Assembly: GCF_022539505.1 (NCBI RefSeq)
Contig: NC_061514.1
Location: 334,535,090-334,599,089 of the forward strand
DNA: 64,000 nucleotides
Direction: 5' to 3'
From: Lolium rigidum
Taxonomy: Eukaryota; Streptophyta; Magnoliopsida; Poales; Poaceae
Shown here: positions 14,162-58,850 of the stretch, piece by piece
Position numbering within the stretch: the first letter of the stretch is position 1
Layout: each line of letters opens with the position of its first letter
Program-made: the position numbers and the translations under genes
Notes under the pieces: model-generated
Seen by the model: the letters and a program-made list of their open reading frames with translations, nothing else
Told to the model about the DNA's origin: nothing
Database searches by the model: none

Positions 14162-15022
14162 GTCGATTTTGACAAAATTAATCTAAATCTCGAAAGATCA
14201 CACAAAATAACTTGGTTTCGAAAAGATTTCACAAAATAACCTTTTGCTCGGCTCCGCACAAGATGGAGTCATGTCTCGATGACGCGCTTCAGTCTCATGT
14301 GGAGCCAAGATGAGAAGCATGGCGCCGTTGCGAGTGGAGCCAAACTCAATAGCACGGCTCCGTCTGCGGTGGAGCCAAGCTCATAAGCACAACGCCGTCT
14401 CAGGCGGAGCCAAACTCAGTAGCACGACTCCGTTCCAGGTGGAGCCAAGCTCAATAGCATGGCTCCGTCCCAGGTGGAGCCATGGTCCTTAGCCATTTTC
14501 TAACAACAATTGATAGTGGTTCATGCATCTACTGAGGACTAAGTTTATTTAGCTCAATAGAGAGATTTGCATCATCTCGGACCACCACCAAGGGATACTC
14601 AAGATAGTTATTTTCTATTTCGTGCTTGTTTATGTGTGCAAAATTGTCACCGGTGGGCGCTTAAACCCCTACTGCGATAGAAAGTCACCCTACAATCTAA
14701 CCTTGTCAGAAAAGACTTTGAGTCACTGATGCGCGCGAAACTCATCAAAAGTAGGCGCTCTGCTGGCAGTACTTATTAGGCGCATGTAAGAAATTTTGTG
14801 GTGCCTTCAGATACTCGCCGAGTTATTATACTGTTGGTTGGTTAATAAGCGTCTCCATTAGTTCGTTCTGATTTTCTAGAGAGCCTGGACGTCTTTCGGT
14901 TCAAGGTTGTGACTACAACCAGATGTGTGTTGGTACTAGATCGCATCCATGAACCCAAACTATTGAGGAAGCACATTGCAAAGAGAAGTAGAATAATATA
15001 GCAATGATAGACTAATATAGCT
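14162..15022. repeat. Left arm of the foldback element
   Basis: This is inverted relative to 15172-16018. Long matching words include GAAGCACATTGCAAAGAGAA (inverse near 15200) and CACCGGTGGGCGCTTAAACC (inverse near 15515). Confidence 0.9.
14299..14486. repeat. Minisatellite in the foldback arm, 35-36 bp units
   Basis: About five units each begin TGGAGCCAAGCTCA and contain GGCTCCGTC. They are mirrored in the right arm at about 15690-15905. GGAGCC and GGCTCC alternate, so single units can also self-pair. Confidence 0.8.
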
Positions 15023-15171
15023 AGGGTTGCAAGTGAGGGTTTGGACCCCCACTCGCACCTTCACCCTGTATTTGTAGGGGGCGGTGGGGTGGGTTTGACG
15101 GGCCCCGTATTCTGCCGATACCGCCGGCCCGAATACGGGGCCTGCTAGACGGCCCATTTCGCCCTCACCCC

Positions 15172-16018
15172 CTATCCTTGCTATATTAGTCTACTTCTCT
15201 TTGCAATGTGCTTCCTTAATAGTTTGGGTTCATGGATGCGATCTAGTACCAACGAGCATCAGGTTGTAGTCATAACCTCGAACCGAAAGACGTCCAGACT
15301 CTCTAGAAAATCAGAACAAACTAACGGAGACGCTTATTAACCAACCAACAGTATAATAACTCGGCGAGTATCTGAAGGCACCACAAAATTTCTTACATGC
15401 GCCTAATAAGTACTGCCAGCAGAGCGCTTACTTCGACGAGTTTCGCGCGCATCAGTGACTCAAAGTCTTTTCTGACAAGGTTAGATTGTAGGGTGACTTT
15501 CTGTCGCAGTAGGGGTTTAAGCGCCCACCGGTGGCAATTTTGCACACATAAACAAGCACGAAATAGAAAATAACTGTCTTGAGTATCCCTTGGTGGTGGT
15601 CCGAGATGATGCAAACCTCGCTATTGAGCTCAATAAACTTAGTCCTCAGTAGATGCATGAACCACTCTCAATTGTTGTTAGAAAACGGCTAAGGACCATG
15701 GCTCCACCTGGGACGGAGCCATGCTACTGAGCTTGGCTCCACCTGGAACGGAGTCGTGCTACTGAGCTTGGCTCCGCCTGAGACGGTGTTGTGCTGATGA
15801 GCTTGGCTCCACCCTGGACGGAGCCGTGCTATTGAGTTTGGCTCCACCTGCAACGGCGCCATGCTTCTCATCTTGGCTCCACATGGGACGGAGCCGTGCT
15901 ACTGAGCATGGCTCCATCTTGTACGGAGTCGAGCAAAAGGTTATTTTGTGAAATCTTTTCGAAACCAAGTTATTTTGTGTGATCTTTTCAGATTTAGGTC
16001 AATTTTGTCAAAATTGAC
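15172..16018. repeat. Right arm of the foldback element
   Basis: This is inverted relative to 14162-15022. A 20-base scale tandem difference near the inner end (extra AATAATATAGCAATGATAG in the left arm) shows the arms have begun to diverge. Confidence 0.9.
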
Positions 16019-16483
16019 GGAGATGGAGAAGATGAATCATGCATCGGTACAGGAAAATTCCTCCCCTGTCCCATCATGTACCATTGGGTCGAAAGTGGTG
16101 CTACGCGTTTAATATATCTGAGCAACTGGGTCCATGCACTGTTCAAAACGAAAGATACGAAAAGGAGTACACCCGAGAATACGCTGACAAGTCAGTAAAA
16201 AGATGAACGTGATTGGCTTAAGAAACAGGAGCATTTGGACCCGGGAGTCGAAACGAGTTTTACTTAAATTATATGCTAGTATGTTGATATTGTTCTATTT
16301 ATGTTTAAATTTTTTTATGAAGGTGGATCACCCTGCTTCAAACTCCTAGATCCGGCACTGCCTCGGGAACGAGCTGGCCATGCGGGCATCGAGCAGTCAC
16401 CACTTCTATTTCTTCCATAAAAAGGGATGAAACACCCACGCATCTCACCTCTAGCCTCCAAACGACCTCCAACTCTCGAAAAC

Positions 16484-17231
16484 ATGGAAGCAGATACCAT
16501 GCCGCCGGCGCCACCACCTCAGCGTGTCGAAGACATGGTCGAACTCGTCGAAGAGATCCTCCTCCGCCTCCCGCCGAACGAGCCTGACAGCCTCGTCCGT
16601 GCGGCAGTCGTATGCAAGCCATGGCGCAGACTCCTCTCCAGCCACCGCTTCCGCCGTCTCTATCGTGACTTCCACAAAAAACCTCCTATGCTAGGATTCT
16701 TCCAGAACTCCCTCTTGTTGTGGTTGCCGTCGCAGTTGACATTCTTCGATACTTACCTCGCAAAAAAAGGATCCCTTTTGAGCCCTGCCTCCACCAAAGG
16801 CTTCTTGCCGCGTGATCCCGACGGCAGGTATAGTGTGTTCGACTGCCGCCACGGTCGCGTCCTCCTTAAGTGCTGGGACTACAATAACTGCTGGGCCGGC
16901 GTGTCCAAGTATGTCGTTTGGGACCCTATGACGGGCAGCCAGAGGCCGCTGCTTACGCCCTACGAACACGGTTGCGTGGATCATGGGGTCGCAGTGCTAT
17001 GTGCGGTTGGCGATTGTGACCACAGCGCCTGCCACATGGGTCCGTTTCATGTGGTTTACATCACCGTTGACAACGAGAATGAGTATGGAGACGGAGCATG
17101 GGCGTACGTCTACTCCTCCAAGACTCGTAAATGGAGCGAACGGGCCTTTCTTCAGCTGCCTGGGGATAATGATCACGACATGGATAAAAGGCCTTTTGTT
17201 CTCCTCGTTGCAGAAGCATTGTTTTCCCTCA
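16484..17231 (+). pseudogene. F-box gene copy 1, exon 1 first part (cut by a Helitron)
   Basis: The start at 16484 gives MEADTMPPAPPPQRVED, matching copy 2. The F-box lies at about residues 18-60 (LVEEILLRLPPNEPDSL, then VVCKPWRRLLSSHRF), the domain that binds SKP1 in SCF ubiquitin ligases. A grass-type F-box-associated region follows (CRHGRVLL, VVWDPMTGSQRPL, YVYSSKTRKWSE). There is no stop before 17231, where the Helitron enters within codon 250. The coding sequence resumes at 33041 in the same frame. Spliced and without the Helitron it would be 428 residues. As it stands the transcript would have to remove 15.8 kb, so this is a disrupted gene. The substrate is unknown. Confidence 0.9.
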
Positions 17232-17244
17232 CTAGTAAGTTTGC

Positions 17245-17259
17245 ACGTGCAACGCACGT
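17245..17259 (-). terminator. Helitron 3'-terminal hairpin
   Basis: The arms ACGTGC and GCACGT surround AAC (plus strand), nine bases inside the terminal CTAG at 17232-17235. Such hairpins are thought to signal the end of rolling-circle transfer. This is not a transcription terminator. Confidence 0.85.
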
Positions 17260-17287
17260 CTATACAATCAGGTATACAACCACCTCT

Positions 17288-17598
17288 CAGAGCCAACAGC
17301 GATCTATTCTGATTGTGTGGACCTCGCCACTTGATAGGTCAGGTGTGCTTTAGTCATTGTGTAAGGGCAGCTAATAAGTCGGCTCATGCTATAGCTAGGG
17401 AGTCTTTCCTTTCTAAAATCTCTTGTACCTGGGACGATGATCCCCCTAGGTAGTGAGCTACCTTACAAACGACGTAATGATTCTTTGATGATGGCAGCAA
17501 GTTCTAGACGCACTCTTTTTCTTACCAGGGTACCTATGGGGGCTGGAAGGTTTTTAATGAGGCGGCTTGCTGACCTAATATATTATGTTTAAAAAAAA
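17288..17598 (+). mobile_element. LINE 3' tail, severely 5'-truncated
   Basis: The 17-bp direct repeat GGTATACAACCACCTCT at 17271-17287 and 17599-17615 brackets 311 bp ending in A8. A decayed plus-strand reading resembles the last part of a LINE RNase H domain (a run like SAHAIARESFLSK). It belongs to the Helitron body, so the insertion occurred there. Confidence 0.9.
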
Positions 17599-20324: not shown

Positions 20325-20340
20325 TATCACTAGTAGAAAA

Positions 20341-20560
20341 TCTCTCATGCGTACCGGTTCCAGAGGGGCATTCGTACCGGTTTTGCAACCGGTACAAATT
20401 ATTCGGCACTAAAGCCCCCCCCCTTTCGTACCGGTTGCTTACGAACCGGTATAAAACGGGCCTCCACGTGGGCCACCAGGAGAGCTCAGGGCTAAGGATC
20501 TTTGGTACCGGTTGGTAATACGAACCGGTACCAAAGGTTCCCCCGCGGCAGGGAATTTGC
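20341..20560. repeat. Left subterminal repeats of the CACTA element
   Basis: Repeated TACCGGTT and AACCGGTA words appear as inverted pairs 8-20 bp apart, for example around 20371-20395, 20430-20455 and 20506-20535. In the family such motifs bind the TNPA-like protein that brings the ends together. Confidence 0.9.
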
Positions 20561-21041
20561 CCAAATCTCCGCCGCGGCGGAGAATTGGTTTTTTAGGGTT
20601 TTTGGAGGGGTTTAGGGATATCGGTTTGTTTCATATCGCGTCGATGCACCGGAAACGCGTTTGGGTTTAGGTAGTACATGAAGATCAAGATGATGCATAG
20701 CAAGTTGGTGCATATAATATAACACACATGTTATTGCATAAGATCGCAAATTAAGTAGCACTATGCATGAAGATCGATCTTCATGCATAGTGGTACTCTC
20801 CGAGGCGTACTCTATATATGTCTATTACATGTAGCATAGTGGTACTCTTCGAGTCAACTATATATGTAACATGTACATCTTCATTCATAGTGGAACTCTG
20901 CGAGTGGTGGTATGACGTCCCGAAGGAAAAATCCCGCCAATTCCTCGCCTATTGCTATGAAGCGGTCATCGATTGAGAGCTTGTTCCGCTTTCTTGCCAA
21001 CTATAAAAGAATAAGATACAAATGAATACATGAAACAACTA

Positions 21042-24000
21042 TTACTGAAACTCAGCACAACTTATGATAACAAAACAAATTTGTGAAGATTGTTTTTGTA
21101 CCTCTTTATTTCTTTCATTATTCGTTCTCTCGTTGATAATTCTGCGGATGTACTCGCAAACGAAGAATCCACAGAGATCGGTTCCCGGAGGTTGTTGCGG
21201 GCATTTCTTTACAAGAATATAATTCAATCAAACAATAGTCAAGTATGATAATTAAAAGGTGTGTGGACCTAGGTAGTACTACTTACTTTCGCACGCCATC
21301 GCAGCTTCGGTGTCCATTCACGGGACGTATCTTCCTTGATGAAAGTTTGCCATACGCTGCTCGACAAAAGAAAATGCATAAAAGAGTCATCAATTAGTTC
21401 AAAGCAGGAAATTAACGAAACAAACCGATAAGAATTAAAATTACCTTCTGACCATTAAAAAACAAGACAAGTATAGATCCTTATTTTTGCTTAGTGAGTC
21501 CAAGACTTCAACTTCTCCGATTTCCAAATTGATGACGAGAAGAATAAAGTGAAACCTACGCACGTTTCAATATGTAGTGTCATATACATAAGTCATTAGT
21601 TAAAATTTTGACATACGGTGAGCAAAATATAATGTGTTATAAGACAAGTAAGACTCACTCGAAGTTGTAAGGCCAAAGTATTAGCTTTTTGTCACGTTGT
21701 CGCTTCAAAAACCTTAGCAAAGTCTGCGGTGTATCCTTGTTATAGAGGGGATTCTCTATGGTTTTGACATGCATTGTGTTCGGGTCAATGAACCCAATGT
21801 CCGTGATATCGTCCCTTTTGCATTCGAGCATCTTCGATCCGCATAATATAGCGCACAAAAGATTATAATCTGCGGACAATGAACGACTTCTCAAATTAAA
21901 TAAATAAATCACTTACGGACAATAGCAACTGATGATTGATTTGTCGAGGGCCCGGAGATTGTATAACTGAAAGAGTTCGGCGAAGTCAACGTTCACACAA
22001 GTACTCCCGGAAGTAGTGCTCTTCCCTAACTCGCACCATGATAGTCTCGATCCCTTCCTTTGAGGCCTTAAGGTACCACGAATGCAAGTTACGCATACTT
22101 GTTGGTACCTTCCTGACATTCTCGACCAAATCTTTCCCTTGAACAAACTGATATGCTCGTTCAGCTAAGGTGTAATCAGTTCCGTCTTGTCGAGAACTTT
22201 GAACGGTCTTCCCGTCAAACACCTTGAGAGGGTCGACCGATTGAACGGGTTGTTGTCCGAGCTGGTAGACTTGGTGTATCCCTTTTATCTCCCTGATACC
22301 CGATTGAACGGGTTTTGTCGCCTCGATCATCTTGTCATACGACCTTTCAATAGAACGCACATAGTCGGATGGCGGCGATGGTACAGGGTCATATAGATTG
22401 TCAACGGTACGCACAACTTTCTCCCGATCTAGTGTCTTCTCGAAAGGTATCTCCGGCACTTTCGGTGCAAAAATTTCTTCACCTCGGCCCGAACGGCCTC
22501 CGCGTTTTCCTCCGGAGTTTTTTCCCAAGGTAACTTCTCGGTAGGCGGCAGTTGTTTCTCCTTTCTAGCTTTCTTCCTAGGCGGCGTACCGTTCCGCTTA
22601 ACGGACGCCGTCTTACGCGGAGGATCTCGAGATGGTGGACTCACGCTGGGGTCCCTCTCAGGTAGGTGTGGACTTGGCTGCTCACCAGGACTGCCACCAG
22701 GAGGAGTCGATGGCATTTGCTGCTCATGTGTAGGAGTCGGTGGCCTTTGCAAAAGGACGACGTACTTCTTCGGCCATAGGGCGAAACCGTGCTTGACATC
22801 GGCCAGTGTCCTCTCATCTTCACCTCTAGGAATATCAAGCTCCACTTTTTCAAAACCCGAAACAACTTCATCCACCCCGACACGAACACAACCAGGTGGA
22901 ATGGGCATATGATGGTGCATTGCTCCATCTTCACTTGGGTACACATAGCCGACCGCCACCTTAACGTACGCGGTCCCGATTAACATATGTAGCTCGCAAT
23001 CTGTCTTCTCCGTGACATAATCCACGGGGTAGCTTCCTCCACATCCGTCAAGATGCGAGGAACCGACACTCGCTTCTTCGCTGAGATGGGGCAGCATCGG
23101 CTTGTGGATCCCGTAGAAACAAGCGGCTGATCGGGTGCCCTCTGATTTCTCTCAAGAGCCTCCACCCTAGATAACAACTCCGTTACAATGTCGGCGTCCT
23201 TCTTCTTCTTTCGCGAACGGCTTCTATAAGTGTCGGCGTTGTCCGGCCACGCTTCCTTCATGGTGAGACACTGGGCGAGCTCGTACCCGTCCAACATGTT
23301 CGGGGTTCCCCGCAGCGAGTGTCAGCTCGTCATTCTCTCGATCGGGAATGTACTCTCCCTTTCTGACCTTGTCAATTGCATCTACAAGCTTCGGTACAAT
23401 TGCCTCAATTTTTTTCCTTCCATTTTCCCTTCGCAACGATCAACCCTGTCTTTGGGTCCAACCCTGCCCCATGAGCGAACAACCATAACTTGGACCGTTC
23501 GGGCCAGTCCCATGTCTGTGGAGTGATTCCATGATCCATCAGTTTATTCTCAAACGCCGTCCACTTCGGAATGGCACTCTTGTAGCCACCGACCCCAAAT
23601 GATGCGGAAGTTTCTTCTTTGCAGCATTTTCGGTATTTTTCTTCGATCGGGACACAAAAGTAGACGATTGCTTATACTCCTTAAATGCGGCCCGGTGATC
23701 TTTTATCTTCACTAGATTATCATCGAATACTCGGATCTTCATTCTTATATTTGTCCCATAAATTTTTCTTGAAGGTCCGGAATTGTATGGCCATCTTCTT
23801 CCATGTCCATTCCTTGACTTTATTCTTTCGGCCTTCCGTCATGTCTTCCGGTAGGCTGAACTTTGTCATGAGCGTGTCCCAAAGAAATTTTTTCATCGCG
23901 TCGTTGACATAACTAGCACCACTCTCCGGGTTCTTCGGCTTATGCCACTCTTGAATGCTGATCGGTACATGGTCCCTAACAATAACTCCGGATTGACTTG

Positions 24001-24431
24001 TAAATTTGCGGCAAAACTCCTTGGGCGCCACGGGTTCACCATTATCCTTGAATGCCGTGAGGGCTAACCTGCCCTCGCACTTTAGCACCCGCGTCGGGCC
24101 TCGTTTTGATCTAACAGACTTGCTCGATGATCCAGAAGGCTAAAAGAAAAAATTATTCGTTAATAAGTGCAATACAAATAAATGAATGCATCTAGGGATG
24201 AACATATAGACTAATTGATACATAGATATACACCTCGCCGGAGTTTGTGATGGACACTTCGTTGTCTCTTCTAACTTGTTCGGACTCAAGTCCCTCGCCA
24301 AAATCATTCGGAAAGTCTTGGTAATCGTTGTCTTCTCCATCGTCGGGTTCCGGACCACGGGCACTCTCATAGATCAATTGCTGCACCGCTTCTTCCCCCT
24401 CCTCATCTCGGACGAAGGTGCCGTCCTCCAT
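21042..24431 (-). pseudogene. CACTA second gene: Transposase_24 / ULP1 protease-like protein
   Basis: The minus-strand start at 24431 gives the acidic MEDGTFVRDEEGEEAVQQ. A likely intron (about 24140-24237, GT-AG on the minus strand) follows. The next exon has KCEGRLALTAFKDNGEP and LWDTLMTKFSLPEDM, typical of the plant Transposase_24 (En/Spm) domain. Further on come a basic proline-rich linker (PPRKKARKEKQ), the KTDCELHML block seen in this gene family, and a C48-type (ULP1) protease end: KKLILWPYNFE, then CPQQPPGTDLCGFFVCEYIR with the catalytic cysteine. Reading frames change several times between 21900 and 23500. Some changes may be introns, others frameshifts. It probably binds the element's ends and may remove SUMO from host or element proteins. 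Confidence 0.75.
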
Positions 24432-24534
24432 ACCTCAATGTCACTACAAAATTAAGAAAGCAATTGTATTTCATTCATCATGTAATGATCATATAACGGA
24501 TTGCTAGATGGATAACAATTGAAATGAAGAAAGC

Positions 24535-24694
24535 AAAAAACCCTAACCCTAATACTTGGTGCTCCTATTTCTTGACCCTAACTCTATGTCGCGGCGGCAC
24601 CACCACGGACTCGGCGCCGCTATGGACCCTAACCCTAACACTCGGCGCTATTCTCTTCTCGCTCTTCTCTCTTTTTCTCGACCCTAACCCTAAC
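24535..24694. promoter_or_regulatory. Telo-box-like ACCCTAACCCTAA motifs upstream of the CACTA second gene
   Basis: Three near-perfect copies lie at 24536-24552, 24626-24639 and 24681-24694, with a degenerate fourth near 24577. Each is followed by CTTGGWGCTCC-like sequence. They lie within 265 bp upstream of the minus-strand start at 24431, so they sit in its promoter or leader. Telo-boxes act in promoters of growth-related plant genes. The role here is inferred. Confidence 0.55.
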
Positions 24695-25099
24695 ACTTGG
24701 AGCTCCTCCTCTCGCGAGCTCACAGACGGCGACAACAACGGAGAAAAAAAGAGAGAACGACCTAGTAAATCAGTATTCCCCTCCCTCTCGTCTCTCACGC
24801 CGACGACGTGCGCGCCCGCACGAGAACGGCAGCAAAGACCCCGCTCGGCCCTACACGGCGACGCCGAAGAGCATGCTCGGTATGTCGACACGTAGCTACG
24901 GGCACCAAACTACGCCTCCTCGCGATGCGGTGGCGCTCGCGGCCGCGACCACTACAACCCCGGTGAGACATCCGGCGGTTGGGCGACGCGCCTAGCCCGA
25001 AAACCGTCCGCGGCGGCGGCAGCGATTAACGCCCATCGAAGCCCTCAACGGCGGCGGCGCTTCACCAGCCCGGCGCAGCTCCACGCAGCGGACGACCCC

Positions 25100-25330
25100 A
25101 CGGCCCCAGCGTGGCGGCCGGCGCGCTCACGACGGCTGCTGCTGCTGCTGCTGGCCGGCGCCGGCCGCCTGCTGCTCGCTGGCTGGCGCCGGCCGCCGCT
25201 GCTGCCGCTGCTGGCCGGCGCCGGCCGCTGCTGCTGCCGCTGGCCGGCGGCCGCCGGCCGCCGCCGCTTCCGGCCGGCGCCTACCCTCCGCACGGCAGCG
25301 CGGCATTTCGTCGAACACGCCGCGGGCGTG
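25100..25330. repeat. GC-rich CTG/GCC trinucleotide-like tract
   Basis: Repeated CTGCTGCTGCTG and GGCCGGCGCCGG words make long artificial open frames in several frames on both strands (Ala/Arg/Pro-rich). I regard these as low-complexity sequence and not a protein. Confidence 0.7.
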
Positions 25331-25732
25331 CGTGAGGGGAGGCCGGCAGCGAGCTCACCGCGGCGGTCGCGCGCGCGCGGGCTCCTCCCGGCGAAGCGCG
25401 CGGCGGCTAGGGAGGCGAGGTGAGGGAGGCGAGGTGAGGGAGGCGAGGCGAGGGAGGTCCTCACCTCGGTTGCCGGCGCGGGGAGAGGGTGGAGCGGCGG
25501 GCGTCGACGCGGCGACGACGGCGACCCGGCCTGCTGCTGCGCCCGACGGTTGCGGGCTACGGCGACGGCGTCGGCGCGTGGAGCTTCGGGCGATGGCGAC
25601 GGCGGCGGCGCGTGGAGCTGCGGGCTACGGCGACGGCGGCGGCGCGTGGAGCTGCGGGCTACGGCGGCGGTGTACTGCGCTGTTTTTTTTGCCAAGTTTG
25701 GCCACGCCTAAGTGTTATACAGAGGAGAACCC

Positions 25733-25806
25733 TTTGGTACCGGTTGGTAGCACCAACCGGTACGAAAGACCTTTCGTACCGGTTGGTGGTACCAACCGGT
25801 ACCAAA
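25733..25806. repeat. Internal TACCGGTT palindromes
   Basis: Two inverted pairs (TACCGGTTGGT...ACCAACCGGTA) match the subterminal motifs of the host CACTA but lie in its middle. They could be a remnant of a related CACTA end or an internal binding site. Confidence 0.8.
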
Positions 25807-26137
25807 GGTTTTTTTTGTTTTTCTTTTGCTCGTTTCTTTTGTTTTTCTTTTTCTTTTCTTTTTCTTTCTCGTTTCTTTTGCTCGTTTCGTTTCTTTTCTT
25901 TTTATTTTCTCGTTTCTTTTCTTTTGCTTTTCTATTTCTTTTTTCTATTGCTTTTCTTTTTTTCTGTTTCTTTTCTATTCCTGTTTCTTTTTCTTTATTT
26001 TCTATTTATTTTTTCTATTACTTTTCTTTTTCCTTTCTTTTCTATTTATTTTTTCTATTGCTTTTGTTTTTCTTTTCTATTGCTTTTGTTTTTCTTTTCT
26101 ATTTCTTTTCTCTATTCTATTTCTTTTCTTTACTCTC
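25807..26137. repeat. Polypyrimidine tract, about 330 bp
   Basis: This is an almost pure T/C run built on TTTTCTTT with occasional G or A. The Phe/Leu/Ser-rich open frames it creates in all plus-strand frames are artefacts. Such tracts can form triplex DNA and slow polymerases. Confidence 0.85.
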
Positions 26138-26310
26138 GCCACGACGCCGTCCGCACAGGAAACTTTCCCGTCCCGACGTCGCGCGGGAAACTTTCCCGGC
26201 CACGACGCCGCGCGGAAAAGAAAGGGCGGGAATGAAATTTTATTACGATTGAACTCGAATTAAAAGTACATAGCTTAACCGAAAATTAAAGATACATGAC
26301 CAAATTCTAC

Positions 26311-26803
26311 TGGAGTCATTCAGTCATACTCGTGCCTAGCCCTGTAGTAGTCGCCACTGTAGTCGTCATAGTCGCCGTCATCATCGTCGCTGGCATCGGG
26401 GTCACGGTACTCGAACGTCGGCGGGTGAGCACGCGTGGGCTGGGACTGAGGGTAGCGCAGGCGGGGGCCACGGTAGGCCATGACGCCTCGGAGAGTCCTG
26501 CCGCGCCACCACAGCCCGACGGCCGGCCTCGTTGAAGTTCGGAGGAGGCGGGCCGCCCTCCTCGTGCTCGGCAAGCGCCCTCTCACGCCGATTGATGAAG
26601 AAGCTTTCCCAAGTCGGGCTGTAGTCGGGATGCCATCGGGGATTCCTCCGCCGCTCCGGCGTGAGCTCGAAGTAGTAGTGGTTCGTGATGGCCATCTCGC
26701 GCGCCACACCTAGAGGGACCGGAGGGACCGGTACGCCTCGACGCTTAGCAACCAGCCGGTCGGGACGCGGTAGCCCGGCGGGCGAGGGTAGTTCGAGGCG
26801 CAA
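26311..26803 (-). CDS. Hypothetical CACTA-internal protein, possibly frameshifted
   Basis: The minus-strand start at 26803 (MRLELPSPAGLPRPDRLVAK) is followed by NHYYFELTPERRRNP and WHPDYSPTWESFFINRRERA, then FNEAGRRA. The apparently natural continuation (WWRGRTLRGVMAYRGPRLRY and an acidic end with DASDDDDGDYDDYSGDYY) lies in another frame, so there is one frameshift near 26520. Composition is Arg/Pro-rich with an acidic tail. I do not know its function. It may be an accessory protein of this CACTA group or a captured fragment. Confidence 0.45.
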
Positions 26804-27002
26804 AGCGCCTCCGCCTCCCGGGGGTTAGAGATGCGATGGAAGCCATGGGAGAGAATGATGAGGTTTGCGAGATATGAGTCTAGATGTGATATGTAAATGG
26901 TGGCCAAGCCTACATATATATAGTGAAAAAATGGCGGGAAGACAGAGGCGGGATCCGGTGGAAAGCGCGGGAAGAAAATAGGCGGGAAGACGGATCGAGG
27001 CA

Positions 27003-27425
27003 AACCTTTAGTACCGGTTGGTGGGTGCAACCGGTACTAAAGCCGTCGGCAGGATAAGGACGCGTGGGTAACCTTTAGTACCGGTTGGTGGGTGCAACCG
27101 GTACTAAAGCCGTCGGCGGGATAAGGACGCCCCGCTCGATGAGATAAAGTATGTAGCGCACGACGCCCCGTCGGTGGGATAAGGACGCGTGGGTAACCTT
27201 TAGTACCGGTTGGTGGGTGCAACCGGTACTAAAGCTGTCGGCAGGATAAGGACGCGTGGGTAACCTTTAGTACCGGTTGGTGGGTGCAACCGGTACTAAA
27301 GCTGTCGGCGGGATAAGGACGCCCTGCTCGATGAGATAAAGTATGTAGCGCACGATGCCTCGTCGGTGGGATAAGGACGCGTGGGTAACCTTTAGTACCG
27401 GTTGGTGTCCGCAACCGGTACTAAA
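27003..27425 (+). repeat. Higher-order array of TACCGGTT palindromes
   Basis: Five palindromes of the form TAGTACCGGTTGGTG...AACCGGTACTA begin near 27009, 27072, 27202, 27265 and 27395. Spacing alternates 63 and about 130 bp, so a unit of about 193 bp is duplicated with a half unit following. The linker repeats GGATAAGGACGCGTGGGTAA. The array ends about 30 bp before a plus-strand TATA box. Confidence 0.9.
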
Positions 27426-27453
27426 GCCTGTCGGCAGGATAAGGACGCTCCGC

Positions 27454-27463
27454 CTATAAAAGG
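27454..27463 (+). promoter_or_regulatory. TATA box upstream of the hairpin array
   Basis: CTATAAAAGG is a canonical plant TATA element. Transcription would be expected to begin about 25-35 bp downstream, near 27480-27495, placing the first hairpin (27558) some 65-80 nt into the transcript. No comparable TATA was noted on the opposite strand here. Confidence 0.55.
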
Positions 27464-27529
27464 AGCATCGATAGACCATGGGAAGCAGCTCAACAAGCCA
27501 ACATGGATGGAGAGTTTCATCACCATGGA

Positions 27530-28216
27530 TGGAAGAAAGGGTTGGGAAATCTCCCGTGGCGGAACTTGTCGAAGATGCCCTTGGTGCACACGCCCTATGG
27601 CATCTTCGGAAGTTCCGCCTCGGAAAAATTTCCCCGCAAGCCCGTGGAAGACTCCATCTCCTCTAACAATGTTGGGGAAAGGGTTGGGAAATCTCCCGTG
27701 GCGGAACTTGTCGAAGATGCCCTTGGTGCACACGCCCTATGGCATCTTCGGAAGTTCCGCCTCGGAAAAATTTCCCTGCAAGCCCGTGGAAGACTCCATC
27801 TCCTCTAACAATGTGGGGAAAGGGTTGGGAAATCTCCGTGGCGGAACTTGTCGAAGATGCCCTTGGTGCACACGCCCTATGGCATCTTCGGAAGTTCCGC
27901 CTCGGAAAAATTTCCCCGCAAGCCCATGGAAGACTCCATCTCCTCTAACAATGTTGGGGAAAGGGTTGGGAAATCTCCGTGGCGGAACTTGTCGAAGATG
28001 CCCTTGGTGCACACGCCCTATGGCATCTTCGGAAGTTCCGCCTCGGAAAAATTTCCCTGCAAGCCCGTGGAAGACTCCATCTCCTCTAACAATGTTGCGG
28101 AAAGGGTTGGGAAATCACACGTGGCGGAACTTCTCGAATATGCCCTTGGTGCACATGCCCTATATATGGCATATTCGGAAGTTCCGCCTCGGAAAAATTT
28201 CCCCGCAAGCCCGTGA
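27530..28216 (+). repeat. Five tandem units of about 141 bp
   Basis: Units repeat at 142, 140, 141 and 142 bp, measured by the GGCGGAACTT word at 27558, 27700, 27840, 27981 and 28123. Each contains GGGTTGGGAAATC, the hairpin and CCATCTCCTCTAACAATG. Spacings that are not multiples of three argue against a conserved protein reading frame, though one frame stays open by chance across the array. Confidence 0.95.
27558..28188 (+). ncRNA. Candidate multi-hairpin small-RNA precursor
   Basis: Each unit folds: arm GGCGGAACTTGTCGAAGATG (to 22 nt), loop of about 19 nt (CTTGGTGCACACGCCCTAT), and the inverse arm ending GGAAGTTCCGCC, with one bulge. Weaker pairing (GGGAAAT with ATTTCC) extends the stem outward on both sides. 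Hairpins span 27558-27619, 27700-27761, 27840-27901, 27981-28042 and 28123-28188. In the fifth, both arms change together (AAGATG to AATATG, CATCTT to CATATT), keeping the pairing. A TATA box lies upstream. A microRNA cluster or siRNA source is inferred. No known miRNA was recognised. The arms are symmetrical enough that either strand could be used. Confidence 0.5.
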
Positions 28217-28490
28217 CTTAACTAGTAAAACAAGCCAACCATCTCCATTGTTAATATCTTACATACAGGTAACATCATTACACAAAAGTGATTTCCATAT
28301 TGAGATACACAAGTTATACTCCATCTCCTCTAGTCTTCGAGTTTTCTTCGCCCGTTTCCCTTTCTTCTTATCTGCGACGCAACCATGGACAATCTTCATT
28401 GTTTAAGATGATGCTTGGGTCAATTTTTACCTTGAAGGGTGGAATATCGTCAAACTTATTATAATCTTCCGACATGTCCTGTCTTGTCCT
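28217..28490. other. Spacer between hairpin array and TNP2 3' end
   Basis: This is the convergent region. The plus-strand array transcript and the minus-strand transposase transcript would end here. No clear AATAAA signal was seen. Confidence 0.4.
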
Positions 28491-31400
28491 CTACTCCCAC
28501 GATGTTTCTTTTTCCGAAAGAACTATGTGCCGCTTTGGCTCATCGTATGATGTGTCCTCTTGCCTTTCTTTTCTTTTTTTCGGTTTGCTAGACATATCCT
28601 TCACATAAAAAACCTGAGCCACTTCACCGGCTAGGACGAATGGTTCGGTGTCGTACCCAAGATTCTTGAAATCCACCGTAGTCATTCCGCATCGCGGGTC
28701 TACTCCGTACCCCGTCTTTCAGAGTTGAACCATTTACACCGGAACAAAGGGACCTTGAAATTAGGTCCATAGTCAAGTTCCCATATCTCCTCTATGTACC
28801 CATAATATGTGACCTTGTTCCCATTGCCATCTTCTCGCATCAAAGCGGACACCACCGTTTTGGTTGGTGCTCTTTTTGTCTTGGGCGAAAGTGTAAAATG
28901 TGTTCCCATTAATCTCGTACCCTTGAAAAGTCGATATAGTAGAAGATGGTTGCTTGGCCAACAAGTACAGCCTGCTCGTCATCGGTGACATTCATGAGAC
29001 GTGTTTGCAACCAACCGCCGAAAGTCTTCATGTGTTCTCCATCAATCCAATCTTCACGTTGCTCCGGTATTTAGAGCGTAAGATCTCCTTGTGTTCCTCT
29101 TTGTACGGAGCCACCAAGATGGAATTAAGTAGAACCGTGTAGTGTGCTTGAGTGAAAGAATGTCCGTCCATACACGTTGCTGATTTCTTTCCTAGCGTGC
29201 CTTTTCCACGCAGTCTCCCCTCATAGCGCGATTCGGGAACACCGATCGGCTTAAGGTCAGGAATAAAGTCAACACAACACTCAATGACCTCCTCTCGTTC
29301 CATAGCCCTTGGAGATGCTTCCTTCCGGCCTAGCACGGTTATGAACGTACTTCTTTAAGACTCCCATGAATCTCTCAAAGGGGAACATGTTGTGTAGAAA
29401 TACGGGACCGAGAACGCCAATCTCTTCGACCGGGTGAACTAGGAGATGTGTCATAATATTGAAGAAGGATGGTGGGAACACCAACTCGAAGCTGACTAGA
29501 CATTGGACCACATCCTTCGTAAATTTTGTAGAGTAAGTGGATTGATCACCTTCTGAGAAATTGCATTGAGGAACGCACATAGCTTCACAATGGGTACTCG
29601 AACATTTTCCTGCAGAAGCCCCTCAATGCAACCGGAAGTAATTGTGTCATAATCACGTGGCGCTCATGAGACTTTAGGTTTTGAAACTTTTTCTCCGACA
29701 TGTTTATTATTCCCTTTATATTCGACGAGAAGCCGGACGGGACCTTGATGCTACTCAGGACTTCAAAAAATATCTCCTTCTCCTCTTTGGTAAGAGCATA
29801 GGCAGCGGGACCTTGATACTTCTCCGGATTCAGGTTGTTTCCTTCGTGGATACTTTGCTGGTCCTGCCGTGCATCCGGTGTATCTTTTGTCTTCCCATAC
29901 ACGCCCAAGAAGTTTAGCGAGGTTCACGCAAAGATTTTTCGTCACGTGCATCACGTCGATTGCAGAGTGAACCTCTAAGAATTTCCAGTAGGGTAGCTCC
30001 CAAAATATCGACTTCTTCTTCCACATGGGTACGTGTCCGTCAACATCATGCGGAACAGATTGTCCGCCGGGACCCTTTCCAAAGATCACTTCTAAATCCT
30101 TGACCATATCATATATAACTTCCCCATTAGGGCGGGTAGGCTTGGTTCGGTTATACTGCCTCACCTCCGAAATGCTTTCCTCTCTTTCTTACGTGATGTT
30201 GTTTTGGAAGAAATCGACGATGCCCCGGTACACATTCTTGTTTCCCAAATAAATACTATCGAGTCTCACCTAAACAGTGTGTGCATGCATTGTATCCCTT
30301 GTTTGACTGCCCCGAAATGTTACCAAGAGCAGGCCAATCATTGATGGTTACAAATAACAACGCTCGTAGGTTAAATTCCTTTTGTTCGTGCTCATCCCAC
30401 ACAGGTACACCTTCGTCACGCCACAACTCTAAAAGTTCTTCAACCAATGGCCTCAGGTACACATCAATGTCGTTGCCTGGGTTGCTTCGGGCCCTGGATG
30501 AGCACCGGCATCATAATGAACTTCCGCTTCATGCACAACCAAGGAGGAAGGTTATAGATACATAGAGTCACCGGCCGGGTGCTATGACTGGAGCTCGCTC
30601 CCCGAAAGGATTAAAGCCATCTCGTACTTAGACCAAATCTTAAGTTCCTTGCGTCATCCGAAAATGACTTGAACTCTCCGTCGATTTTTCTCCACCGCGA
30701 CCCGTCGGCGGGGTGTCTCGAGCATCACATCTTTCTTACGGTCCTCTTTGTGCCATCGCAACAACTTGGCATGCTCTTTGTTCCGGAACAAACGTTTCAA
30801 CCGTGGTATTATAGGAGCATACCACATCACCTTCGCGAGAACCCTCTTCCTGGGGGTGGACTCACCCTCAACATCGCCAGGGTCATCTCGCCTGATCTTA
30901 TACCTCAATGCACTACATACCGGGCATACATTCAAATTCTCGTACTCCCCGCGGTAGAGGATGCAGTCATTGATGCATGCATGTATCTTCTGCACCTCTA
31001 ATCCTAGAGGGCAGACAACCTTCTTTGCTTCGTACGTGCTAGAGGGCAACACGTTCTCCCCTGGAAGCATCTTCTTTATTATTTTCAGCAACTTTTCAAA
31101 TCCCTTGTCGGAAGTACCATTCTCCGCCTTCCACTCGCGAGCAATTCCAGCGTGGTACCCAGCTTTTTCTCGACCATTTTCGCAATTTGGGTACAACGGT
31201 TTGTTGTGATCCTCTAACATTTTCTCCAACTTCAACCTCTCCTTTTCATTTCCGCAGTTCATCTTCGCATCAAGAATGGCCCGACCCAAATCGTCATCCG
31301 GGTCATCAAAAATCGGCTCATCGAAAATGAGCTCTTCTTCGACCTTCGTCTTCCCCCATTCTACTACCACCGTCTTCGGTGAATAAGGGATAGTTGTCAC

Positions 31401-31677
31401 TATCCTCTTCTTCTTCGTTGTCTTCCAATATAACCCCTCTTTCTCCGTGCTTGGTCCAACAATTATAGGCTGGGCATGAAACCATTCTCCGAGCGAGGTG
31501 GACGTGAAGGGTCTTCGAGGTAGAGTAATCCTTCATATTCTTACAGGAACTACATGGACAATACATGAAACCATTCGACCGCCTGTTTGCCTCAGCCACG
31601 TTGAGAAAATAATGCATGCCGATAATGAACTCGGGATGGCACCGGTCACCGTACATCCATTGTCGACTCATCTGCAT
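28491..31677 (-). pseudogene. CACTA TNP2-type transposase
   Basis: The minus strand begins with MQMSRQWMYGDRCHPEF and FMYCPCSSCKN, the transposase-associated zinc-binding domain. Next come VQKIHACINDCILYRGEYENL with CPVC, EFNLRALLFVTINDWPALGN with CTHCL, then WELPYWKFLEVHSAIDVMHVTKNLCVN. The central TNP2 catalytic region holds a conserved aspartate in DVMH. SFTQAHYTVLLNS and later DUF4216-like sequence (YNFKVPLFRCKWF-like) finish the protein. At least four frame changes (for example near 30460, 29900 and 29580) are not explained by obvious introns, so it is probably inactive. TNP2 proteins cut CACTA ends. Confidence 0.85.
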
Positions 31678-32202
31678 TTTATATGTATATCAAAAATCAT
31701 TAAGTACACAACATCATGGATATATGAGTGACCAACTTAATTAATATTCAAGTTCATCACATAAAACTAAGTTTTTTTTATAAAAAAGAAGAGGCTCACC
31801 GAGGTTGTACGGTGCCGGCTAGGGGACGACGCTAGCGATCGACGGCGGTGAGGACGGGGATGATACTAATTAAAACCTACAAAATATACCATAATTTCAG
31901 CTCAAATTGATTATAAAAAAGTAAAATCCCTAACTTAGTCATTTCATCAAACACCTTGCTAGCACTAGAAAAATAGTACGAGTTAAACTACCAAAGAAAT
32001 GAGCTAAATTAGGAACGCCGGAAGAAAGGATGATATTGCTAACCCTTGGATAGATGGAGGTCGTTAATCTTGTTATAATGGTGGAGAAAAATAAAGATTA
32101 TTGGAGTGTGAGAGGTGGAGAAAAATTTAGAGTGTGAGGAAGAAGAGAAAAATGAGAGCCACGAGCAGGGGGCTCGGGCGATCTGGGCGATTTGATATGG
32201 CT

Positions 32203-32430
32203 GGGTACCCTTTGGTACCGGTTCGTGTTACGAACCGGTACCAAAGGTCCAGCCCGGGCCCCACCACGCGTCCGAATTTTGGCCGAAGACCTTTCGTACC
32301 GGTTCCTAACACGAACCGGTACGAAAGCCCCTCCCAAACCGGTACCAAAGCTCCTCGCCCACCTGAGCCCTCAAACCGGTACAAATGGCCCCATTGGTAC
32401 CGGTTCGTAAGGGAACCGGTACCAATGGCT
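32203..32430. repeat. Right subterminal repeats of the CACTA element
   Basis: TACCGGTTCGT...ACGAACCGGTA pairs recur at about 32216-32244, 32297-32322 and 32398-32425, plus single AACCGGTAC words. They mirror the left end. Confidence 0.9.
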
Positions 32431-32461
32431 TAGATGGATGAGAGGTTTTCTACTACTGTAT

Positions 32462-33040
32462 ATGGAAAACACTAACATGATAATTATTGGCCATCCTACA
32501 TCGGTGGCTGACTGGGGCGAGTACAATAGGGCGAAGGCGGCGTACAGTGCAATAGGACGGAGAGGAAGATGGTCCGGCTCCATGATCAGCGATGGTTCTT
32601 GCTGCAAGGCGCCGGCGACGCCTGGCTCTGGCTCCGGACGCGGTTAAGATGCTCAGTCTCAGGAGCGGCCCCCATTAGCGAGCGGTGATGGCACGAGGTG
32701 AAGTGATCCGGTTCATCTTGAGGAGCGGGAGGTGGCAGGGGGCGGGGTTAGGTAGATGCCTTGGCCTGGAACGGCGGCGCCGCGCGGGAAGGTAATGTCG
32801 AGGACCAGATGCGTTGCTGCGTGGAGAGGAGGCGACGGGGCAGGGGATCGCTGGAAATTGATAGGGCGATTGTGATATATCGTGGGAGGTAGTTTTCTTT
32901 TCCTTTTTTCCGTCTGGTTGGGCGCATGAATTTTGGTGGGGAGAATGAGTTAATTTAGACCGTTCGATGGATATCTGTGGATGGCTGAGATTGTATTTTC
33001 CAACAGCACTTCGTGCCTTTATAAGTATATATAGTAGAGA
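32462..33040 (-). other. 5' segment of the Helitron
   Basis: GC-rich sequence (32500-32850), perhaps a captured gene fragment that I cannot name, grades into an AT-rich end. The terminus itself on the minus strand is TCTCTACTATATATACTTAT, a common opening for grass Helitrons. Confidence 0.6.
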
Positions 33041-33723
33041 TAGAGATTATTACCTTTACGCCAACAAAAACACGCCAAGTTATCAAGTATGATTTAGGCG
33101 ATGAATCCCTATCCGTATTTCACGTGCCCCCCATGGTCGCCGATTGGTTCGAGATACCACCAGCTCTCGTCACAGCCGAAGACGGTGGGCTCGGCCTGGC
33201 GCACGTGGACAAGTTCGGCCTCCACCTGTGGTCTTACGACGACGGGGTTGCGGAGTGGACACTCGACAGAGTCATTGATCTCAACAAGATGTCTCTCCCC
33301 ATTGGTGACCCCATGATCGCACCACAGGTGGCTGGAGCTGTGGAGGGCGCTCGTTCCATCTTTGTAGTCACTGATCTTGGTGCCTATATGATCGATCTCA
33401 ACTCACTGACGTCCAAGAAGCTGTCTCAGGAGATATGTTCAAGTGCTAAAGAAAATGTCGTATTTCACGTCTTTCCCTACCTTAGCTTCTTCAATCGACC
33501 AGGTACGTTTCATCTGAAAATGTTTATCTCTGCTCGTATTTTATTCTTCCTTATGTTCTGCACTTCATTTTTGGAACATAGAACTGCCAAGCAAGATTTG
33601 TTTCGGATATATGTTGTGTTTCTAATCCTTTAACACCACTCACCAGATAACATTACTGGAGGAGGCGCTGCTTCTATTCGGCGAAGCAAACGGAACAGGA
33701 GGCCCAACCCAAAGTACCTGTGA
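33041..33723 (+). pseudogene. F-box gene copy 1, rest of exon 1, intron and exon 2
   Basis: The frame resumes at 33041 as the second base of codon 250. It reads through RQVIKYDLGDESLSVF, VPPMVADWFEIPPALVTAED, HLWSYDDGVAEWTLDR and FVVTDLGAYMIDL to a GT donor at 33503. The intron ends in AG at 33646. Exon 2 encodes DNITGGGAASIRRSKRNRRP and ends NPKYL with a stop at 33721-33723. The C-terminal basic cluster resembles a nuclear localisation signal. No stop or frameshift is present apart from the Helitron. The order and splice sites match copy 2. Confidence 0.9.
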
Positions 33724-55661: not shown

Positions 55662-56513
55662 AGACCCACTTCTACTAACGCCACCAGACGGAATGGACTT
55701 CAGACTGAGGGCAACCAGATAATTAACCTTACAAAAAATGATCCAAAGTTATTTTTTCCAAGCATTTTGCAAATGATGCGTCTCTAACAAAGTGCCTTGA
55801 AAAATGAACCGTCACATAGTGACCCCAGCTATAGCCAAAAAGTGCCTTGAAAAATGAACCGTCACATAGTGCACCCCCAAAATCTTTAATGCTGCTGCTC
55901 CACAGCCGCCCCAAATCGAACCTCTCCTGCATGGCTGCAGGCAGCATAGGATCCTCGTATGCAAGCGTATTGAACCTCGTTGTGAAGGAACAAGGGAAGC
56001 AGTGTGAAACCAAATACGTTTGCTTTGCGTACTCGCTCCGAAGGAAAAAAGGGAGGGCAGTGTGAAACCGATCAGGTTTGCTTTGCACACTCGTTGGCCT
56101 TCCATGTTAGAGCAATTCCAATAGTATAGCCAATTGTTGGCTATAACAAGATGTCATATTATTTGTAGTCATCATATAGCTAACATGTACAATAGTTGGC
56201 TATAAGAATGTAGTACTTTACTTATTATATGTGCCACCTTTCACTCTCATGAGAGTCTCTAGGAAGCGCGTCATAGTTGCTTGTGCGTAGTAGCCCACCT
56301 CCTTTCTCTCTCTTCTTCTCTCTCCTCCAACTCATCTAAAATATATTATTTAATGTCTTATAGTCAGCTGACTGGACTCTATTGTACTTGCTCTTAGCCG
56401 GCTGGGCGCGGGCATCGAGCAGTCACCTCTTCTACTTCTTCCATTTAAAGGGATGAACCGCCCACCTCTCACCTCTAACTAGCTTCAAGAAGCGATCTCC
56501 CAGCCTCAAAAAC
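55662..56513 (+). promoter_or_regulatory. 5' flank of F-box copy 2
   Basis: This includes islands shared with copy 1: TTTGCTTTGCGTACTCGCTC near 56024, GTGTGAAACCGATCAGGTTT near 56070 and GGGCATCGAGCAGTCACC just before the gene. Two close repeats, AAGTGCCTTGAAAAATGAAC, lie at about 55791 and 55840. A Tourist MITE occupies 56110-56393. No convincing TATA box was found. Confidence 0.65.
56110..56393. mobile_element. Tourist-like MITE in the copy 2 promoter
   Basis: TTA at 56107-56109 and 56394-56396. The ends GAGCAATTCCAATAG and, inverted, GAGCAAGTACAATAG. At 284 bp it is the only uninterrupted member of this family in the window and shows the structure of the split copies at 152 and 9402. It ends about 120 bp upstream of the start codon. 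Confidence 0.95.
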
Positions 56514-57972
56514 ATGGAAGCACATACCATGCCGCAGGCGCCACCGCAGCGTGTCGAGGACATTGTCGAACTCGTCGAGGAGATCCTCCTCCGCCTCCCG
56601 CCGGACGAGCCTGCGAGCCTCGTCCGTGCGGCAGTCGTCTGCAAGCCGTGGTGCAGCCTCATCTCCAGCCACCGCTTCCGCCGTCTCTACCGCGACTTCC
56701 ACAAAACACCACCTATGCTTGGTTTCTTCCGCGGCGGGTGGCCGCGTTCATTCGCCGATTGTGACAGCCTCACACCAAGCGAACCACTTTTTACCTCCGC
56801 CTCCACCGAAGGCTTCTCCCCGCTTGATCCCGAGGGCAACTATAATGTGTACGACTGCCGCCACGGTCGCGTCCTGCTCCAAAAGGGATGCGACGATGAC
56901 TCTACTGTAGAAGACCTCGACGTCGACGACTGTATGAAGTTTCTCGTCTGGGACCCTATGACGGGCAGCCAGTGGCCGCTGGTGGCGCCCGACCAAATAG
57001 GCGGCTGTTGGCATGGGGCTGCAGTGCTATGTGTGTGGGCGGCTGTGACCACGGCGCCTGCCACATGGGTCCGTTTCTTGTGGTTTACATCAGCATTGAC
57101 GAATATGAAGACGGTGGCTAGGGAGCTTGGGTGTACGTCTACTCTTCGAAGACTTCTAAATGGCGCGAACGGGCCTCTGTTCCCCTTATTACCATGGAAA
57201 CAGGACACTGCATCAAGACAGACTCTTTGGTTCTCGTTGCTGAATCATTCTACTGCCTCGTTACGTTGACCTACCGAGAAGAAGCAGCACACCAAGTTGT
57301 CAAGTACGATTTAGGCGATAACAGCCTATCGGTATTTAAGGTGCCCCCCATGGTGGCTGATAGTTCCCATATCTCTCCTGCCGTCCTCACAGCTGAGGAC
57401 GCTGGGCTGGGCCTGGCGCACCTGGACATGTTCAGCCTCCGCATGTGGTCTTACGACGATGGGGTTGCAGAGTGGACACACCACAGAGTCATTGATCTCA
57501 AGATGCTTCTCCCCATTGGCGACCACATGATTTCACCCAAGGTGGTAGGCTCTGTGGAGGGCACTCGTACCATCTTTGTTCTAACAGATCTTGGCGTCCA
57601 CATGATTGATCTCAGCTCGCTGACGTCCAGGAACGAAGGTCATAATTTGCAACTGTCTCAGAAGATATATTCCATCGTGGGACGACGGGTCCATTGCATC
57701 TTTCCCTACGTTAGCTTCTTCGATCGACCAGGTACAGTTCATTCGAAAATCTCAACCTTCGCTCGTATTGTATTCATCCTTCTGTTTTGTACTTCATTTT
57801 TGGAACATACAAAGCAAGATTTGTTTCTGAGTGTAATTTGCTTTGTTTCTCATTCTTCTGTCGGGCTACTTTACCAGTGGTCACGGCTAGGAGGACTGTG
57901 TCGACTGGAGAAGGCGCTGCATCTGTTCGCCGAAGCAAACGGACCCGGAGGCCCAACCCAAGGTACCTGTGA
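56514..57972 (+). pseudogene. F-box gene copy 2, frameshift and stop
   Basis: The start MEAHTMPQAPPQRVEDIVEL has an F-box in the same place as copy 1 (EEILLRLPPDEPASLVRAAV). CRHGRVLL and LVWDPMTGSQWPL follow. A 1-bp deletion near 57040 shifts the frame (copy 1 reads CAVGDCDH here), and in the ancestral frame a TAG follows at 57119-57121. The downstream half is otherwise open: YVYSSKTSKWRERA, VPPMVADSSHISPAV, MWSYDDGVAEWTHHR and FVLTDLGVHMIDL. A GT donor is at 57732, an AG acceptor at 57876-57877. The last exon has TARRTVSTGEGAASVRRSKR and ends NPRYL, stop 57970-57972. A truncated F-box protein of about 180 residues is the most that could be made in the original frame. Confidence 0.9.
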
Positions 57973-58850
57973 GCCCAATCTGTCATATATTCAGCAATGA
58001 GCAAGGTGTGAAGAAGCTAGACATGAAACTTGCAGCCGGTTCGGGTTTAAAAAATAACTGGAGGCCGACTCTCTCTTTTCGGATGTCCTTCTCTTCCTCT
58101 CGAATTTGTGTAATTTGGGCACAATTTGTACCGGAGCCTTTATCAGTTGTAATAGGATCATAACACTTGATCTTCTAAAGTCCAAACCGATCTATTTTCC
58201 TAGTAGCAGCGGCACATTATGGAGAAAATGAAGTTGCAAAGGTCAATGATATGATAAAGTAGTACCTTTTTAGGCTGGTTTGGTCGTAATTAAAGAAGCT
58301 GGGTGCAGTTTCAGATGGACATTCAGTTTATGGTCTTGTGTTTGTCACTACTTAGTTTTAGTTCTGGGTTTGAGTCTTCTATGGCGATTCCGTATTGAAG
58401 ATGATCCGGCCAGTTGCAAGATTTATTCTGCTTCCTGTTGCATGATCTCTTTTTTGTGTGTAGTATATACTCAGTGCTGTACTAGAGAGTACTAACTCTG
58501 CACTCAGCTGTGTTACAACCTCAACCTTACTAGGAGGAATAGGCCAATATTGTTTTCTAGTAGTAAGCTGCAAAGCGACTTTGTTTCACTCCTTCCATTT
58601 GTACTCAACCCCGTACGTTGTTTCTGTTTCCGTCTCCGCCTATCATTTGCTTTATTTTTACTGAGAATAGCAACTGGCAAACTTCATATTGTCGGACAGG
58701 TATCAGCGAGTGGGACATTTGGCAAAGACTCTGTCGAGTGCCTGTGGGCTGTATCACTTGACATGCGGCAAAATCAGGTAGTGATTACCCTTTTGGTTCA
58801 TCAAATCTTGGCCGAACTGACACCCAAAATCTTAAGAGCGTAGCATGCTC
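57973..58850 (+). other. 3' flank of F-box copy 2
   Basis: This parallels the copy 1 flank (33724-34045 and 38083-38830) without the LINE. It preserves the pre-insertion sequence GTCGTAATTAAAGAAGCTGG at 58286-58305. Confidence 0.75.

Follow-up and report, generated by a model that had tools for sequence, protein, structure and literature searches.

Tandem arrays of two kinds of microRNA-type hairpins, probably a small-RNA cluster, inside CACTA transposons of Lolium rigidum

A CACTA transposon of Lolium rigidum carries, just past the 3' end of its transposase gene, a tandem array of five hairpins of two kinds, and arrays of this sort recur on all seven large contigs of the genome. The array was analysed in a window of 64,000 nucleotides, the whole stretch of DNA to which all positions below refer. 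Judged here from its sequence and predicted folds, the array resembles a polycistronic MIRNA locus in form. We consider it to be a noncoding hairpin RNA gene of the transposon, probably a small-RNA cluster whose product we infer, and we give this reading a probability of roughly 0.6.

The element that hosts the array (Table 1) belongs to the CACTA superfamily, as it has CACTA ends, CACTAGTAGAAAATCTCTC and CAGTAGTAGAAAACCTCTC (the right one with a single-base departure, CAGTA), a 3-bp TSD, and a tnp2-type transposase with the domains Transpos_assoc, Transposase_21, DUF4218 and DUF4216 on minus-strand ORFs. The location inside a CACTA transposon, first proposed in a preliminary description made from the letters of the window, is thereby confirmed. 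This copy of the element looks broken, because its transposase ORFs lie in several frames, and one of the transposase pieces has Lolium proteins as its closest named relatives. The hairpin strand is antisense to the transposase gene, whose 3' end faces the array, and the array sits at approximately 60-65% of the element length. A 15-bp linker stretch, ACTCCATCTCCTCTA, is repeated just beyond the array at 28318-28332, beside the transposase 3' end (E 0.007, unit 1). Elsewhere in the window, perfect 16-bp inverted ends (CACTGATGCGCGCGAA at 14724/15457) lie within 14292-15928 and have 35-bp repeat arrays on both sides; this region is possibly another CACTA-like element. Moreover, three ORF regions (16421-17353, 33025-33633 and 56457-58000) resemble related copies of an F-box-type gene, and an F-box Pfam match was obtained in a scan of the first of them.

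Table 1. Position of the hairpin units and of the associated features in the window
Feature	Position	Strand	Remarks
CACTA (En/Spm-type) element, 12.1 kb	20328..32458		Flanked by the TSD TAT; 17 of 19 bases agree between the ends
Possible small diverged gene, overlapping open pieces	26320..26824	-	From ORFs; putative gene
Palindrome array TACCGGTT...AACCGGTA	27003..27448		From TRF and motif positions; directly precedes the hairpin array
TATA box CTATAAAAGG	27454..27463	+	Only exact copy in the window
Unit 1, type A	27539..27643	+	Arms 27558-27579 / 27599-27619
Unit 2, type A	27681..27785	+	Arms 27700-27721 / 27741-27761
Unit 3, type A	27822..27925	+	Arms 27840-27861 / 27881-27901
Unit 4, type A	27963..28066	+	Arms 27981-28002 / 28022-28042
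Unit 5, type B	28104..28212	+	Arms 28123-28144 / 28168-28188; compensated pair relative to type A
TNP2 transposase gene, pieces in several frames	28491..31689	-	PF13963, PF02992, PF13960, PF13952 on separate ORFs

The five units occupy 27539-28212 on the plus strand, and the positions of their arms bear out what had been described at the outset, namely five tandem units of about 141 bp with spacings of 142, 140, 141 and 142 bp. All five fold as hairpins: the core of every unit (104-109 nt) forms one long hairpin of -56 to -63 kcal/mol, with z between -7.5 and -9.1, and none of 200 dinucleotide shuffles folded as well. The arm duplex consists of 22 nt and 21 nt joined by 21 pairs with one bulged base, in agreement with the geometry of a plant miRNA precursor that had been claimed for it. 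Plant MIRNA foldbacks are shorter than 300 nt and have an arm duplex with few mismatches and small bulges, and the units have this form. Units 1-4 share identical arms, and the arms of unit 5 differ by one compensated pair, in which G-to-T together with C-to-A keeps the pair; the two versions are called here A and B. With as many as 3 mismatches allowed, no further match to the arms was obtained in the 64-kb window, and none in 100 shuffles. When the whole window was folded, other parts of it folded equally or more strongly, so that fold stability alone is not special; what distinguishes the array is its repetition and form, not energy alone. Five Rfam matches to the window array had E values up to 1, none of which reached the gathering score, and four other array loci matched no family. 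A search of viral and bacterial sequence collections gave one chance 22-mer in a viral contig and nothing else.

Upstream of the first hairpin and on the same strand, the TATA box noted in the preliminary description was found in place, but the distance of about 95 bp given there had to be corrected: the box starts 103 bp before the first arm and approximately 84 bp before the outer stem. An exact copy of CTATAAAAGG also occurs in 21 of 100 shuffles of the window, and one copy could thus be chance. The box is meaningful because its place is nearly fixed in other copies of the array: all 40 loci picked with a probe from unit 1 have TATAAAAG 103 bp ahead of the first arm, and in 65 of the 67 loci collected altogether (see below) this distance is 93-125 bp. 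We regard TATAAAAG as a putative TATA promoter of the array. Directly before it, as had been stated, lies the palindrome array, which is probably a promoter or other regulatory region. Four such TACCGGTT...AACCGGTA clusters were observed in the element, two at its ends (20352-20530 and 32216-32421) and two internal (25738-25801 and the one listed in Table 1). On the other side of the palindromes, the possible minus-strand gene (26320-26925) heads away from them, opposite to the hairpins, and has a TATA-like CTATATATATG near 26915; its ORFs (26320..26824) had no Pfam match at E 0.01. The palindrome region is perhaps a bidirectional promoter. In addition, the sequence PIKGASIHHGKQLNKP, encoded by two relatives in other contigs (P0178 and P0179), agrees in our reading with the TATA box and leader of the window, and for this reason conservation of the promoter region may extend beyond this genome.

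Further copies, for which a search had been advised, were sought in the species' own genome (2.44 Gb, seven large contigs of 271-413 Mb) with two probes. The first, 161 bases from unit 1, found arrays on every large contig, and the best 40 of its 1050 candidates (the window and 39 others) hold 121 units, two to five per locus. The second was the transposase-side flank at 28230-28700, chosen to avoid picking loci by their hairpins; among the best 40 of its 2574 candidates, 13 were shared with the first set (window included) and 27 were new. All 40 flank-picked loci carry at least one unit and 38 carry two or more, with a single unit in L058 and L063. Both sets are made of best-scoring copies, and old copies are therefore under-sampled. 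Together they amount to 67 loci (window included) and 192 units, of which 164 show exactly one of the two arm pairs (113 exact A/A, 51 exact B/B). The order of the units is highly regular: in 64 of the 67 loci one to four A units are followed by one B unit (AAB in 37, AB in 16, AAAB in 10, and AAAAB in one, the window), and three loci deviate. Some type-B units, observed at four places (L053/L079, L071/L076, L077 and L086), have no bulge, their 3' arm being exactly complementary to all 22 nt of the 5' arm.

A pattern search of the genome for places complementary to the 5' arm, with flank codes set to exclude window-type arrays, gave 65 + 71 matches, against 0 + 1 for the reversed pattern. Of the 136 matches, 100 were listed, and 32 loci were read (20 and 12 further). 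Hairpin arrays, or the remnant of one, made up 22 of them, including six window-type arrays with altered flanks; the remaining ten comprised two FAR1-like loci, five reverse transcriptases, two copies of another coding repeat and one noncoding place. This revealed a sister type, termed C, with a spacing of about 222-226 bp, the loop TTAGATGGCCGGCCGTCTTA and the arms GGCGGAGCTTCTCGAAGATGTC / GACATCTTCGGAAGCTCCGCC. Loop and spacing are unrelated to those of the window type (W), and the arms are nearly alike: C and A differ at 5 of 43 arm bases, namely the bulged base and four bases that belong to two compensated pairs. The one-sided arm bulge is present in most units of the W, S and C types, some type-B units being without it. 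At four of eight distinct C-type places (L083, L087, L090/L091 and L094), the 3 kb read beside the array contained the 3' end of the window TNP2 at 79-81% identity, one of these matches covering 111 bases only; at the other four (L080, L084, L088 and L095) no TNP2 match was seen in 3 kb. The position of the array is thus likely shared by both CACTA subfamilies, though perhaps not by every C-type place. Two further observations concern this type. In one locus (L088 and L089, G000:C1 65.030-65.032 Mb), C-type hairpins lie approximately 1.4 kb from an S-type array. In L090, the 226-bp units contain TATATATAC roughly 110 bp ahead of the next hairpin, and C units might therefore carry promoters of their own.

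We then evaluated covariation in a set of 51 distinct arm pairs (22 W, 19 C, and 10 S or other). Of the 192 W units, 4 with other arm lengths were omitted, and 29 of 98 pattern-search rows entered the set, the remaining rows being window-type loops, opposite-strand readings and other arm lengths. Arm cells were paired in 96.5% of cases, compared with 92.5% in 1000 column shuffles, and compensatory cells numbered 55, compared with 21.3 (sd 5.6); none of the 1000 shuffles reached either value, although such shuffles do not keep the relatedness among copies. Over the 51 arm pairs the structure is thus kept by compensatory change, as expected of a MIRNA, with few independent events (about five or six in our reading), because the changes are partly inherited within types. 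The lower stem points in the same direction less clearly. On its 5' side the W and C consensus sequences are identical at 7 of 20 positions, and it pairs within types (W, -17.0 versus -9.0 shuffled; C, -12.9 versus -7.4), but a mixed stem of the W 5' side and the C 3' side reaches -12.5, about equal to C with itself, which makes the lower stem weak evidence. Arms that change in step suggest that the transposon may make small RNAs of its own.

Conservation within the young window subfamily was also analysed. In the loci picked with unit 1, 7 of 2638 cells vary in the arms and loop of the last unit, compared with 2.1-3.7% in the flanks, while in the flank-picked loci the arms are 0.25-1.9% divergent and the flank 0.4-1.3%; as the result depends on how loci are picked, we do not claim low arm divergence in this subfamily. 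Similarly, a weaker test on back-translated proteins of relatives in other contigs, which used 67 of 119 unit segments, showed no excess of kept pairs: these numbered 59 among 194 changed cells, with a shuffle mean of 58.5, perhaps because synonymous changes are invisible in back-translated proteins. The comparison between types is better evidence for a selected structure than divergence within the subfamily. These two results are what would be expected if the array were a tandem inverted repeat amplified with the transposon, a trigger or victim of silencing through dispersed 24-nt siRNAs that has no selected product, and the copies read are indeed young and nearly identical. Nevertheless, we regard such a by-product as rather unlikely, since it does not lead one to expect the compensatory changes over 51 arm pairs, the A(n)B order, a TATA box kept in nearly every locus, or arms that survive across two types with dissimilar loops and spacing.

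Covariation of paired arms would also be expected if the units were long inverted repeats acting as DNA-level sites, bound by a TNPA-like protein of the element to which the arms would be fitted. CACTA elements use repeated palindromic sites, and the TACCGGTT palindromes of the same element lie approximately 100 bp away. The En/Spm subterminal repeats that bind TNPA are short palindromic DNA motifs found mainly near the termini; they are like the array in being repeated, palindromic and part of the element, but they do not have a long loop-bearing stem behind a TATA box. In the array, a loop separates the arms, most units carry a one-sided bulge, the lower stem pairs within both types, and the distance to the TATA box hardly varies, all of which speaks against binding sites in the DNA and leaves this explanation improbable.

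A protein-coding array, whether through an ORF of 62 to about 100 aa or through a repeat of 47 residues, is hardly credible: the 141-bp unit consensus does equal 47 codons, one frame remains open across the array, 59 predicted proteins resemble a second frame, and at least 44 of the 65 TATA-bearing loci have a 62-aa ORF from the first ATG, but the loci that share this ORF are young copies, its frame hits TAA in the first linker of the window, the open frame is without a Pfam match, the same leader enters different frames in different relatives (in our reading), and only 30 of 125 spacings in the 67 loci are divisible by three, in line with the earlier argument from the spacings that a repeat protein was unlikely. 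Protein relatives of the first frame were sought and none was found. The 59 relatives of the second frame were discarded as a real protein family, as they mostly read successive units in different frames; we take them to be the same DNA family translated by gene callers.

In the small-RNA cluster that we favour, the TATA promoter beside the element's own palindromes would drive a transcript running antisense to the transposase gene, and towards its end. This transcript would fold into one to four A hairpins followed by one B hairpin, two to five in all, from which a Dicer-like enzyme would probably cut the 21-22-nt arms, giving small RNAs in two versions. A hairpin with one extra base in its 5' arm tends to give a 22-nt RNA, and here the 5' arm is usually one base longer than the 3' arm. 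Loading of the small RNA, and action on any target, would follow; our guess is that it would most likely be used in trans, regulating host genes or related elements. Taking the argument further, we suggest, tentatively, that a CACTA lineage of cool-season grasses carries a two-kind microRNA cluster as a standing part, that selection has maintained the arm duplex as loops and spacing changed, and that the cluster is used in trans against host genes or rival elements.

Possible targets were sought for the 5' arm. No silencing-gene site was recognised among the 32 loci read, a set outside which DRM2 falls and for which 100 of the 136 matches were listed, and within the window and its element the best score was 4.5, at 16540, outside the element. 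Two FAR1-like loci (L096 and L097) contain a site that mismatches the type-B 5' arm at 2 positions, and FAR1 (PF03101) and MULE (PF10551) domains were found, in broken frames, in L108. Forty members of the FAR1-like family were then taken from the 150 candidates scored out of 2302: the site has 2 mismatches in one member (L136), 3 in four, 4 in 19, 5 in four and 6 in one, and the 11 distant members have no comparable site. The mismatches fall in the seed, as the usual form is TTCCAGA where TTCCGCC is needed. With at least 4 mismatches in 24 of 29 close members and the site absent from the distant ones, FAR1/FHY3-like genes, the best near-complementary candidate, were rejected as a convincing target. 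The A arm is matched by Gypsy reverse transcriptase copies (L093, L101, L102, L104 and L106, with RVT_1 in L101), the match in L101 having, by our count, 3 mismatches, at arm positions 16, 18 and 21. The reversed pattern gave 0 + 1 matches, but few non-hairpin families were seen among the matched places, and the Gypsy match may be chance.

Tandem hairpins are also known from miR2118-type clusters, which are polycistronic, of the 22-nt type, and form host loci with known phasiRNA targets; those loci thus lie outside a transposon body, unlike the array. A closer setting is that of rice miR820, which lies in CACTA elements and targets OsDRM2 (PMC3459959). The passages of that work that deal with the elements describe five CACTA copies with pre-miR820, apparently one each; they also report similarity to the target gene, and they present Northern as well as cleavage data (PMC3459959). 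Both miR820 and the array are miRNA-type foldbacks in CACTA elements that multiply with the element and vary among copies, but miR820 apparently has one hairpin per copy, and the array mostly two to five of two kinds in tandem. The precedent of miR820, invoked in the preliminary description, thus holds for the CACTA setting, and the parallel so far goes no further; an attack on host silencing in the manner of miR820 would be conjecture. In wheat, the small RNAs tae-miR1117 and tae-miR1131 have been assigned to CACTA repeats, and the sequences given there begin with the UAGUACCGGUU motif of the palindromes adjoining the array (PMC3398953); they correspond to the TACCGGTT palindromes and not to the hairpins. 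In wheat, moreover, the first and last tenths of CACTA elements account for about half of the small RNAs that match such elements (PMC2996936); the position of the array is internal. Among the papers searched, which excluded supplements and subscription journals, none was found that prints 15-17-base stretches of the window or C-type arms, and no title or abstract was found on such a hairpin array.

Transposons are usually viewed as the targets of small RNAs, and to our knowledge few are known to encode a selected small RNA of their own. A multi-hairpin unit that is kept in two CACTA subfamilies, with arms that covary, would provide a concrete, high-copy case for a transposon-encoded small RNA.
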